A DNA stretch of 60,115 nt. Source: Syntrophaceae bacterium (GTDB lineage: Bacteria > Desulfobacterota > Syntrophia > Syntrophales > UBA5619). Below the pieces are notes generated by a model. It was given only the letters and a program-made list of their open reading frames with translations, did no database searches and was not told where the DNA came from. The stretch is taken from assembly GCA_003141195.1 (NCBI GenBank), contig PLLC01000108.1, positions 1 through 60,115 of the forward strand. The letters run 5' to 3'. Shown in pieces: positions 15,788 through 19,172 of the stretch. The translations under genes were made by a program, and so were the position numbers. Every line of letters begins with the position of its first letter. Position 1 is the stretch's first letter.

Positions 15788-17065
15788 TCAGATCAGTGCG
15801 AAGACGAGCATCGCCAGCGAAAGGAAGGTGAGGACCGCGACGGTCAGCCAGGAGAGGATGTTCATGATGGGACCGTTCTTGTATTTCCCCATGATTCGCC
15901 GGTCGTTGACCAGCAGAAGCATGAAGACAAGGATGATGGGGAGGATCGCCCCGTTGACGACCTGGGAGTAGAACATGATCCGGATCAGCGGCATGTCGGG
16001 CAGGAGGATGATTCCCGCGCCGAGGAGAACCATCAGAGAGTAGAGGCCGTAGAACTGAGGGGCCTCCAGGAACTTGCAGTTCAGGCTGGATTCCCACCCA
16101 AAGGCCTCGCAGATCGTGTAAGAGGTCGAAATCGGCAGGATGGAGGCGGCAAACAGCGAGGCGTTCAGGAGGCCGAATGCGAAAAGCCAGGAACAGTATT
16201 CCCCGGCAAGCGGCGCCAGCGCCTGGGCGGCGTCCTTGGCGCTTTCGATCCGGACGCCGTTCTGGAAGAGCGTCACGGCGCAGAGCATGATGATGAAGAA
16301 GGCAACCACATTGACCATGACCGACCCGAAGATCACATCCATCCGGGTGTACGGGTAGTCCTCCGCCTTGAGACCCTTGTCCACCACGGAAGACTGGAGG
16401 TAGAACTGCATCCAGGGGGCGATCGTCGTCCCGATCACGCCCACGGTCATCGTCAGAAAGCCCGAGTCCATCCGGATCGTCGGTTTCAGAAAGGAAGAGC
16501 CGATCGCCCCCCAGTCGGGCCTGCCCATGAAGCCGGAGACGATGTAGGAGAGATAGAAGACGCAGGCCACGAGAAAGACCTTCTCCACGGACTTGTAATT
16601 CCCCTTGACCACGAGCCACCAGACAAAAGCGGCGCTGAACGGCACGGAGATGTATCGGCTGATGCCGAAAATCTCCAGGCTCGCTGCGACGCCGGCAAAT
16701 TCGGAAATCGTGTTCCCCAGATTGGCCAGAAACAGGACGATCATCAGGTAAAAGGTGATGCGCGCCCCGAACCGCTCGCGGATCAGGTCGGAGAGCCCCT
16801 TGCCCGAAACCACTCCCATCCGGGCGCACATCTCCTGGATGATGATCAGGGCCGCCGTGATCGGGATGAGGGTCCACAGGAGGGTGAGGCCATATTCGGC
16901 GCCGGCCAGGGAATAGGTCGTGATGCCGCCGGCGTCGTTGTCGACGTTGGAGGTGATGATCCCCGGTCCGATCAGCGCAAAGAAGAGCCCGAGCGAGCGC
17001 CAGTACTTCCTGACGGCCAGGGATTGCCAGAATCTGCGGATGCCTCCGGAAAGGGAATCAACCAT
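15788..17065 (-). CDS. Nramp-family divalent metal transporter, atypical motifs (possible NRMT-like Mg2+ transporter)
   Basis: Membrane transporter of 425 residues with about eleven hydrophobic segments and overall Nramp (SLC11) architecture. The canonical helix-1 motif DPGN is replaced by DNDAGG (residues about 41-46). The canonical helix-6 MPHN is replaced by APWM (in TTIAPWMQFYLQSS), so the metal-binding methionine is alanine. Loss of that methionine is a known mark of Nramp-related magnesium transporters, hence the suggestion of Mg2+ rather than Mn2+/Fe2+; this is inference. It lies 33 bases downstream of the MgtE-like sensor gene, on the same strand. Confidence 0.8.
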   Translation of the reverse strand: MVDSLSGGIRRFWQSLAVRKYWRSLGLFFALIGPGIITSNVDNDAGGITTYSLAGAEYGLTLLWTLIPITAALIIIQEMCARMGVVSGKGLSDLIRERFGARITFYLMIVLFLANLGNTISEFAGVAASLEIFGISRYISVPFSAAFVWWLVVKGNYKSVEKVFLVACVFYLSYIVSGFMGRPDWGAIGSSFLKPTIRMDSGFLTMTVGVIGTTIAPWMQFYLQSSVVDKGLKAEDYPYTRMDVIFGSVMVNVVAFFIIMLCAVTLFQNGVRIESAKDAAQALAPLAGEYCSWLFAFGLLNASLFAASILPISTSYTICEAFGWESSLNCKFLEAPQFYGLYSLMVLLGAGIILLPDMPLIRIMFYSQVVNGAILPIILVFMLLLVNDRRIMGKYKNGPIMNILSWLTVAVLTFLSLAMLVFALI

Positions 17066-17098
17066 GGTCTTATGCCGCCTTCCTCATCCATCGTCGTC

Positions 17099-18361
17099 CT
17101 ACCGGCCCAATTTCGGCGCCACCACTTCGAGGAGATTCTTGAACAGGATGACTCCCTTCAGGCGGCTTTCGTCATCAACGACCGGCATGGCCATGATGCC
17201 GTACTTGGCAAAATCGTCGGCGATCCGGCCCTTCTTCTCCTCGATGTTCACCGAAATCACCCGCGTATCCATGAGCTCCGAGAGAATAGTCGCCGGAGGC
17301 GCCACGAGGAGATCCCGCAGGGTGAGCACCCCGAGGATATGCTCCTCGCCGTCCAGGACATAGAGGTAATAGATCAGATCCATATCCTCGGCTTCAAGCC
17401 GGATCTTCTCCATCGCCTCCCCCGCCGTCACGGCGGGTCCGAAACTGAGGAAAGAGGTGGTCATCAGCCCTCCGGCATTTTCCTCCGGATGGGCAAGGAG
17501 TTCCTTCATATCCTCCGCCGCGTCCTTCTCCATCTCCTTGAGGATCCCTTCCGCCCTGTCCTTGGGAAGATCGCCCAGCAGGTCGGCCGCCTCGGAGAGG
17601 GACATCTCCTCGATGATATCGGAGGCGTTCGCTGTCGACAGGCCCTCAATCAGGCTCACCTGGATTTTCGGATCGGTCTCTTCCAGAGTTTCCGCGGCCG
17701 TTTCCACATCGAGAGAACGGAAGACGGCGGATCGCTGGTGGATATCGAGATCCTCTATGATGTCTGCCAGATCCGCCGGGTGGAGCTGGGCGAGGCGGTT
17801 CTGGGCGATGGTCAGCCGCAGCAGATCCGGCGAGGAGAGGGGCTGCACGAACTTCCAGGCAATCAATTGATCCGCCATGACGTAGTCGAAAAGTTTTTGG
17901 AGGAGAAAACCTATGAGCTTCTTCAGCCCGACGCGCCGCAAGAGACCGTGGAAGCCGACATCCACATGGACCAGGTAAAGGATCTTGTTCGCCTGGAGAA
18001 ACTGCAGGTCGTTGACCCGCCGGATTTTCGCACCGTCCGTATCGACCACCTGCTTGTCCAGAAGGGTATCCTTCAAGAGGAGCTCGCCGGAACGGGGAAC
18101 CGGTTCCCGGAAATCCTCCGGCCGGAGGGGATGGGCCACCAGCGTCCCGTTGACCGCCGCGATCTTTCTCCAGGGGAAGAGGACGTTTTTTTTATTCCCT
18201 TTCAGGCGCAGGAGGATATCTATGACCGGAGGGTATATCTCCCCGATGTTCCCGGTCAGGTCGAGGACCCTGCCGATGGGACGGCCTTCGGAATCAACGA
18301 TTTTTCTGCCCAGGAGTTCGCTTAAAAACAAAAACACCTGAGGTTCAGGGTTCACCGCCAT
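17099..18361 (-). CDS. Soluble PRC-MgtE_N-CBS protein (MgtE-like Mg2+ sensor without a channel)
   Basis: Protein of 420 residues from the ATG at 18361, which has GGAGG eight bases upstream; ATGs at 18367 and 18415 fit less well. Two PRC-barrel-like repeats come first (LLGRKIVDSEGRPIG near residue 15; LLDKQVVDTDG near 97). An MgtE N-terminal superhelix follows (HPADLADIIEDL, LLGDLPKDRAEGIL), then a pair of CBS domains (GGLMTTSF..., then VISVNIEEKKG). No transmembrane helix is visible, although MgtE proper continues into a five-helix channel. In MgtE these cytoplasmic domains close the pore when Mg2+ is high. Here the likely client is the adjacent Nramp protein. Confidence 0.82.
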   Translation of the reverse strand: MAVNPEPQVFLFLSELLGRKIVDSEGRPIGRVLDLTGNIGEIYPPVIDILLRLKGNKKNVLFPWRKIAAVNGTLVAHPLRPEDFREPVPRSGELLLKDTLLDKQVVDTDGAKIRRVNDLQFLQANKILYLVHVDVGFHGLLRRVGLKKLIGFLLQKLFDYVMADQLIAWKFVQPLSSPDLLRLTIAQNRLAQLHPADLADIIEDLDIHQRSAVFRSLDVETAAETLEETDPKIQVSLIEGLSTANASDIIEEMSLSEAADLLGDLPKDRAEGILKEMEKDAAEDMKELLAHPEENAGGLMTTSFLSFGPAVTAGEAMEKIRLEAEDMDLIYYLYVLDGEEHILGVLTLRDLLVAPPATILSELMDTRVISVNIEEKKGRIADDFAKYGIMAMPVVDDESRLKGVILFKNLLEVVAPKLGR

Positions 18362-18467: not shown

Positions 18468-18494
18468 AACAAGTCTGCAATCGGTGGCGGTCAA

Positions 18495-18528
18495 CCCTTT
18501 TAATTGAATCCCGCGAGATTGAAAAGGG
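18495..18528 (+). promoter_or_regulatory. PyrR-binding (anti-antiterminator) hairpin
   Basis: Arms CCCTTTT (18495-18501) and AAAAGGG (18522-18528) enclose AATCCCGCGAGATT at 18507-18520. That core agrees at 13 of 14 positions with the PyrR RNA consensus ARUCCNGNGAGGYU known from Gram-positive pyr operons. Bound PyrR would hold this hairpin closed and let the downstream terminator form. Confidence 0.75.
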
Positions 18529-18569
18529 ACGGTCCATGAAAAATTTTATCTCCTGTAAGTTTGGTCTTC

Positions 18570-18601
18570 AAGCCTTCACCCGTCGGGGGGAGGCTTTTTT
18601 T
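18570..18601 (+). terminator. Attenuator terminator upstream of pyrR
   Basis: AAGCCT (18570-18575) pairs with AGGCTT (18591-18596), with a CCC/GGG inner pairing, and seven T residues end the stem (18595-18601). It lies 32 bases before the pyrR start. The 5-prime arm segment CCTTCA could instead pair with UGAA..GGG of the PyrR hairpin's 3-prime side, giving an antiterminator. Confidence 0.75.
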
Positions 18602-18605
18602 GTGA

Positions 18606-19172
<567 letters not shown>

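Follow-up and report, generated by a model that had tools for sequence, protein, structure and literature searches.

The window analysed here, a stretch of 60,115 nucleotides, belongs to a 3.27-Mb genome (96% complete) of the order Syntrophales, the order that includes Smithella. On its minus strand, a frame for a 420-amino acid protein (18361–17099, with its start at ATG 18361) is followed, after a gap of 33 bases, by a frame for a 425-amino acid protein (17065–15788). Both open frames were confirmed at these coordinates, and the Pfam and structure matches of the two proteins lie far beyond chance. The features of the locus are as follows.

15788–17065 (−): predicted NRMT, an SLC11/NRAMP-related Mg2+/Mn2+ transporter of 425 amino acids (Pfam Nramp; EleNRMT is the nearest solved relative; clade in the tree)
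16925–16942 (−): TM1 ion-site motif DNDAGG, residues 42–47 (alignments; D44 and G47 form the DxxG of NRMTs, a motif defined in PMC8806188)
16409–16429 (−): TM6 ion-site motif TTIAPWM, residues 213–219 (alignments; T213 and A216 form the TxxA of NRMTs, same source)
17066–17098 (−): intergenic stretch with AGGAAGG, ribosome-binding-like by our reading of the sequence, ahead of the transporter
17099–18361 (−): soluble partner (putative sensor) protein of 420 amino acids, PRC-PRC-MgtE_N-CBS-CBS (Pfam; model; MgtE cytosolic fold; no membrane segment)
18134–18331 (−): first PRC barrel, residues 11–76 (Pfam PF05239)
17813–18085 (−): second PRC-like barrel with a helical insertion, residues ~93–183 (model secondary structure; no Pfam match, the name being our own reading)
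17480–17785 (−): MgtE_N domain, residues 193–294; Mg7 (E224) and Mg6 (D260) kept, Mg4 D91 lost (S256) (Pfam; residue mapping)
17108–17479 (−): CBS pair, residues ~295–418; Y332, R349 and D350 kept, D226 (G388), D246 (K408) and D247 (N409) lost (Pfam; residue mapping)

The flanking genes lie outside this two-gene unit. On one side is a convergent signal-peptidase-like gene and on the other, at 18633, a divergent pyrR-like gene (both labels are our reading of the sequence) with a PyrR-binding leader at 18492–18603 (+), which scores 51.5 bits, slightly below the family cut-off. The same leader occupies the corresponding place in the Smithella relatives L109, L113 and L137, so that the pair adjoins the pyr locus throughout the group. 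A promoter scan of the locus gave no excess over shuffled expectation.

The transporter and its ion site

The downstream protein matches the Pfam Nramp family at 345 bits, and its nearest solved relative in a sequence search is EleNRMT (7qia, E 1e-119). Structure comparison with EleNRMT yields a TM-score of 0.85 with 46% identity over 398 columns, and in the alignment the ion-site residues D44, G47, T213, A216 and Q368 are all shared with EleNRMT. The first four make up the DxxG / TxxA-or-T signature that PMC8806188 gives for NRMTs. The alignments also bear out both predicted motif replacements, with the DAGG part of DNDAGG in TM1 standing opposite the canonical DPGN and the APWM of TTIAPWM in TM6 at the position of the canonical MPHN. 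In a maximum-likelihood tree, the transporter groups with EleNRMT (98/92) while canonical Nramps separate at 100/99. Judged by its sequence, the protein is thus assigned to the NRMTs, the branch of the SLC11/NRAMP family that transports magnesium, and is predicted to carry Mg2+. Actinobacterial and Burkholderia NRMT relatives are longer (~545 amino acids), their extension containing no additional Pfam domain.

According to Ramanadane et al. (2022, PMC8806188), EleNRMT transports Mg2+ and Mn2+, not Ca2+, and is uncoupled from H+. The same study reports that NRMT residues placed into EcoDMT were insufficient for Mg2+ transport. The original prediction had taken loss of the helix-6 methionine as the mark of a Mg2+ transporter; its outcome agrees with the clade found here, but its reasoning is not borne out by the EcoDMT swap or by the Mn2+ transport of EleNRMT. 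Because loss of the methionine alone is insufficient for Mg2+ transport, the motif argument is too simple and clade membership is the better ground.

Separately, L073 (G000:C106), at a contig end, holds an 87-amino acid C-terminal fragment of another Nramp-family protein. It is nearest to the DDDPSG/DDDPAC relatives L062 and L061, and transposase-like reading frames lie nearby.

The partner protein and its metal and nucleotide residues

Pfam places PRC, MgtE_N and two CBS domains in the upstream protein, and the best match of its model is the cytosolic domain of MgtE (2yvy, 1.8 Å over 230 columns, Z ~28), with which it shares the fold of the N domain and CBS pair. This agrees with the predicted soluble PRC-PRC-MgtE_N-CBS-CBS architecture without a channel. 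An overlooked membrane domain was rejected: with the Kyte–Doolittle scale, only one 19-residue window in the partner reaches at least 1.6, compared with 63 in the transporter, and its frame stops 33 bases ahead of the transporter start codon. The MgtE membrane domain, PF01769, is absent from the partner protein and from the whole genome. Unlike the MgtE channel, the partner therefore has no membrane domain; it also lacks the plug helix, its chain ending instead in a short basic tail, and has two PRC-type barrels in addition. Weak FliG domain matches occur in many partners (FliG_M in 43 of 63), probably because MgtE_N and FliG have helical repeats in common.

Residues were compared across 121 partners and 20 MgtE channels, with the Thermus thermophilus residues given by PMC5882242 and PMC5529423 as reference. 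The Mg6 residue D95 is invariant in all 121 partners, an acid (E or D) occupies Mg7 in 108, and the Mg4 aspartates are retained in about two thirds. Almost every partner has lost Mg2 and Mg3, the sites of the plug helix, and has a short basic tail in their place (mean charge +2.3 versus −3). The partner of the window sits in a 35-member clade that has lost D91 (S256), D246 (K408) and D247 (N409), and nearly all of these members have also lost D226 (G388). Its Mg4/Mg5 clamp thus reads S256, N409, G388 and E412 for D91, D247, D226 and D250, with E412 alone still acidic, while Mg6 (D95, here D260) and Mg7 (E59, here E224) are kept. As regards compensation for the lost Mg4, the alignment reveals E203 and E227 gained in the N domain and no evident substitute at the N–CBS bridge. 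At the nucleotide site, Y170, R187 and D188 of MgtE correspond to Y332, R349 and D350, so that the ATP phosphate and ribose contacts are kept; N203 and the adenine-stacking F227 are replaced by D and I, and are unconserved in most of the sampled MgtE channels too.

In MgtE, mutation of any single Mg2+ site blocks closure at 10–20 mM Mg2+, and for this reason the partner of the window is unlikely to work exactly like MgtE. The premise that MgtE cytoplasmic domains sense Mg2+ is weakest for this protein, in which the Mg4 pair, the Mg5 residue D226 and the plug helix are all lost, and from these residues it appears doubtful that proteins of its lineage use the Mg4/Mg5 mechanism of MgtE to sense Mg2+.

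Co-occurrence of the pair and exclusion of the MgtE channel

Among 297 genomes of the phylum to which the window belongs, 64 carry an NRMT gene and all 64 carry a full-length or contig-split partner; a 65th partner genome has its NRMT cut by a contig end. The partner lies upstream in 41 of these, downstream in 5, convergent in 10 and on another contig in 9 (counted by hand from coordinates, some of the nine being at contig edges). NRMT is present in 22 of 249 Bacillota genomes, and pairing is 22 of 22 once two mismatches are accounted for, namely a partner split by a frameshift and one lying at a contig end. A frameshift-split partner has been described for Clostridium acetobutylicum (Shin et al. 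2014, PMC4072509). At 80 named loci the neighbour is present in 71; five of the remainder are at contig edges and the other four have the partner elsewhere in the genome. There is thus no clear exception to co-occurrence in the two samples, although the genes are sometimes unlinked; exceptions may exist outside them. The linkage, found in two phyla and several arrangements, goes well beyond operon hitch-hiking, and NRMT homologues do not usually lack the partner, a finding that would have spoken against the original prediction. No fused transporter–sensor form, which it had suggested searching for, turned up among the 80 named loci or among those loci of the phylum and pairs on plasmids that were examined. 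The long open frames G203 (669 amino acids) and L089 (871 amino acids) were considered as fusions and rejected, since the sensor lies in a different frame or strand.

Both genes also travel together on plasmids of Citrobacter, Mycolicibacterium and others. On the conjugative IncHI1B plasmid pPSV of Citrobacter freundii (L207), the pair stands beside a heavy-metal P-type ATPase and an ArsR-type regulator, and on plasmids of Leifsonia and Mycolicibacterium a MgtC/SapB-family gene lies within ~1 kb of it (L212, 5262–6044; L208, 6036–6746). A Burkholderia plasmid relative of NRMT has no partner beside it. On a Tsukamurella plasmid (L209, 3983–5796), a PRC-MgtE_N-CBS protein is directly followed by a DUF1003 protein, with no NRMT there, which raises the possibility that the PRC-MgtE_N-CBS module may serve other membrane partners.

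The pair and the MgtE channel tend to exclude one another. Of the 297 genomes, 65 bear the pair and only 6 of these have the membrane domain of the channel, compared with 168 of the 232 others (p 8e-21, ignoring relatedness). Within eight families, pair-bearing genomes are mostly without the channel while genomes without the pair have it, and in Bacillota the channel occurs in at most 2 of 23 versus 152 of 226 (a count based on sensor-query matches). In the genome carrying the window there is a single CorA, an MgtE channel is absent, and no P-type ATPase scores above the MgtA cut-off.

In relatives from Geobacter-like, Myxococcota, Acidobacteria and Bacillota genomes, an M-box Mg2+ riboswitch lies ahead of the pair. 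An M-box has been reported for a subset of NrmT pairs (PMC4072509), and belonging to that group does not depend on having one. At the locus of the window no M-box match was obtained at E up to 1, the sole RNA match being the PyrR leader on the opposite strand, and the M-box is also absent in the near relatives scanned. The Mg4 acids are kept at all 7 scored M-box loci and at 9 of 24 loci without an M-box, a difference that lineage alone could produce.

Interpretation of the pair

The pairing is not new. Shin et al. (2014, PMC4072509) found a gene for an MgtE cytoplasmic domain, which they call an MgtE-like fragment, beside most NrmT genes, and proposed feedback regulation while leaving its function open. 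The same two gene families are adjacent in the window; the locus differs in having no M-box, and it is in the present analysis that the partner is described as carrying PRC domains and as having lost Mg2+ sites. As far as can be told, what we add is that the two genes co-occur obligately, that the pair and MgtE exclude one another, and that Mg2+ ligands have been lost in a lineage-specific way. Later functional work on the partner was not found in the literature searched, which omits most subscription journals; nor was any literature naming the PRC barrel together with MgtE, and a search for DUF1003 with MgtE_N returned nothing relevant by title. The EleNRMT study examines a transporter that shares its clade and ion-site residues with that of the window, and the passages searched in it mention no partner protein (PMC8806188). 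Overall, the genes, domains and motifs of the original prediction hold; its interpretation is upheld in part, namely in the NRMT clade, the MgtE fold and the linkage, but not in its arguments for Mg2+.

On balance, we consider it somewhat probable that the two genes form an uptake module for Mg2+ (probably also Mn2+) in which the partner slows import in trans. NRMT would bring in largely hydrated Mg2+ without proton coupling, and the separate cytoplasmic partner would dock on the transporter or on the membrane close to it and slow import at high internal Mg2+ (or a high Mg-ATP state), thereby exerting in trans a control that MgtE exerts in cis through its own cytoplasmic domain. Since the plug helix is gone, contact would have to be made by other surfaces, for which the PRC barrels and the basic tail are candidates. 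In favour of this reading are the ion site and clade shared with EleNRMT, the co-occurrence in varied arrangements, the exclusion of the MgtE channel and its absence from this genome, the M-box ahead of relatives and the invariant Mg6 aspartate. Against it count the Acidobacterium capsulatum results of Shin et al., in which co-expressing the partner brought no extra Mg2+ rescue and the transporter favoured Mn2+ (PMC4072509), as well as the loss of Mg2, Mg3, Mg4 and D226 of Mg5 in this partner, the missing M-box and the lack of fused forms among the loci examined. The near-absolute co-occurrence, together with the exclusion of MgtE, suggests that cellular NRMT normally works with the partner. 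Although physical contact and the direction of regulation are our inference, the partner is most likely a regulator of NRMT; regulation in trans is likely, and putative gating in trans is plausible.

The main rival, which we regard as unlikely, is that in this lineage the partner does not sense Mg2+ but, via its CBS pair, adenine nucleotides, or else a different metal, Mn2+ for example. On this view the clamp resembling that of MgtE has decayed, and the transporter serves Mn2+ or mixed uptake. This would be consistent with the concerted loss of the Mg4 ligands and D226 in the 35-member clade, with a lysine at D246, with the retained equivalents of Y170, R187 and D188, and with the distribution of the M-box, which is missing at this locus and from the near relatives scanned, whereas Mg4 acids are kept at all seven scored M-box loci. 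Furthermore, the NrmT of Acidobacterium capsulatum acts as a Mn2+ transporter, with full rescue of Mn2+ uptake and Mg2+ rescue at low millimolar levels only (PMC4072509), and EleNRMT also carries Mn2+. However, the Mg6 and Mg7 positions are retained, the F227 and N203 positions are unconserved in this partner (as in most of the sampled MgtE channels), and in related families the pair replaces an MgtE channel.

It is more improbable still that NRMT requires the partner for its stability or membrane targeting, the partner acting via its PRC barrels as a chaperone, as an assembly factor or in metal handling and not as a gate. Chaperone activity was named as an alternative by Shin et al., whose co-expression of the A. 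capsulatum partner, the single published test of this kind, gave no added Mg2+ rescue and no sensing effect (PMC4072509); an inhibitor, however, would not show up in an assay of rescue. The conservation of PRC barrels and basic tail, and not of the gating sites, also fits such a role. Against it, the C. acetobutylicum NrmT proteins (PMC4072509) and EleNRMT (PMC8806188) function without the partner, and the MgtE N-CBS fold is retained with its invariant Mg6. An accidental neighbourhood of two unrelated genes in one operon, without joint function, has in its favour the partnerless Burkholderia NRMT relative and the Tsukamurella soluble protein beside a DUF1003 gene, but is largely refuted and very improbable, because co-occurrence in two phyla includes, besides convergent and reversed arrangements, unlinked cases that rule out operon hitch-hiking.

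The fold match list of the transporter includes KimA, a LeuT-fold K+ importer (8b70, c-di-AMP-bound). KimA is a LeuT-fold importer under the control of a ligand-binding soluble domain. It differs from the pair in that its regulatory domain is unrelated and fused in cis, with K+ and c-di-AMP in place of Mg2+ and ATP.

Returning to the two-gene module with a regulating partner, it is possible, and we put this forward tentatively, that the Mg2+-gating domain of a channel became a free regulator and acts in trans to gate a LeuT-fold transporter unrelated to that channel, that the module repeatedly replaced the MgtE channel, and that the lineage of the window was retuned by loss of the Mg4/Mg5 clamp, with K408 at the acid position beside Mg4. 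If gating in trans proves true, the regulatory half of a channel would have been reused to control an unrelated carrier.
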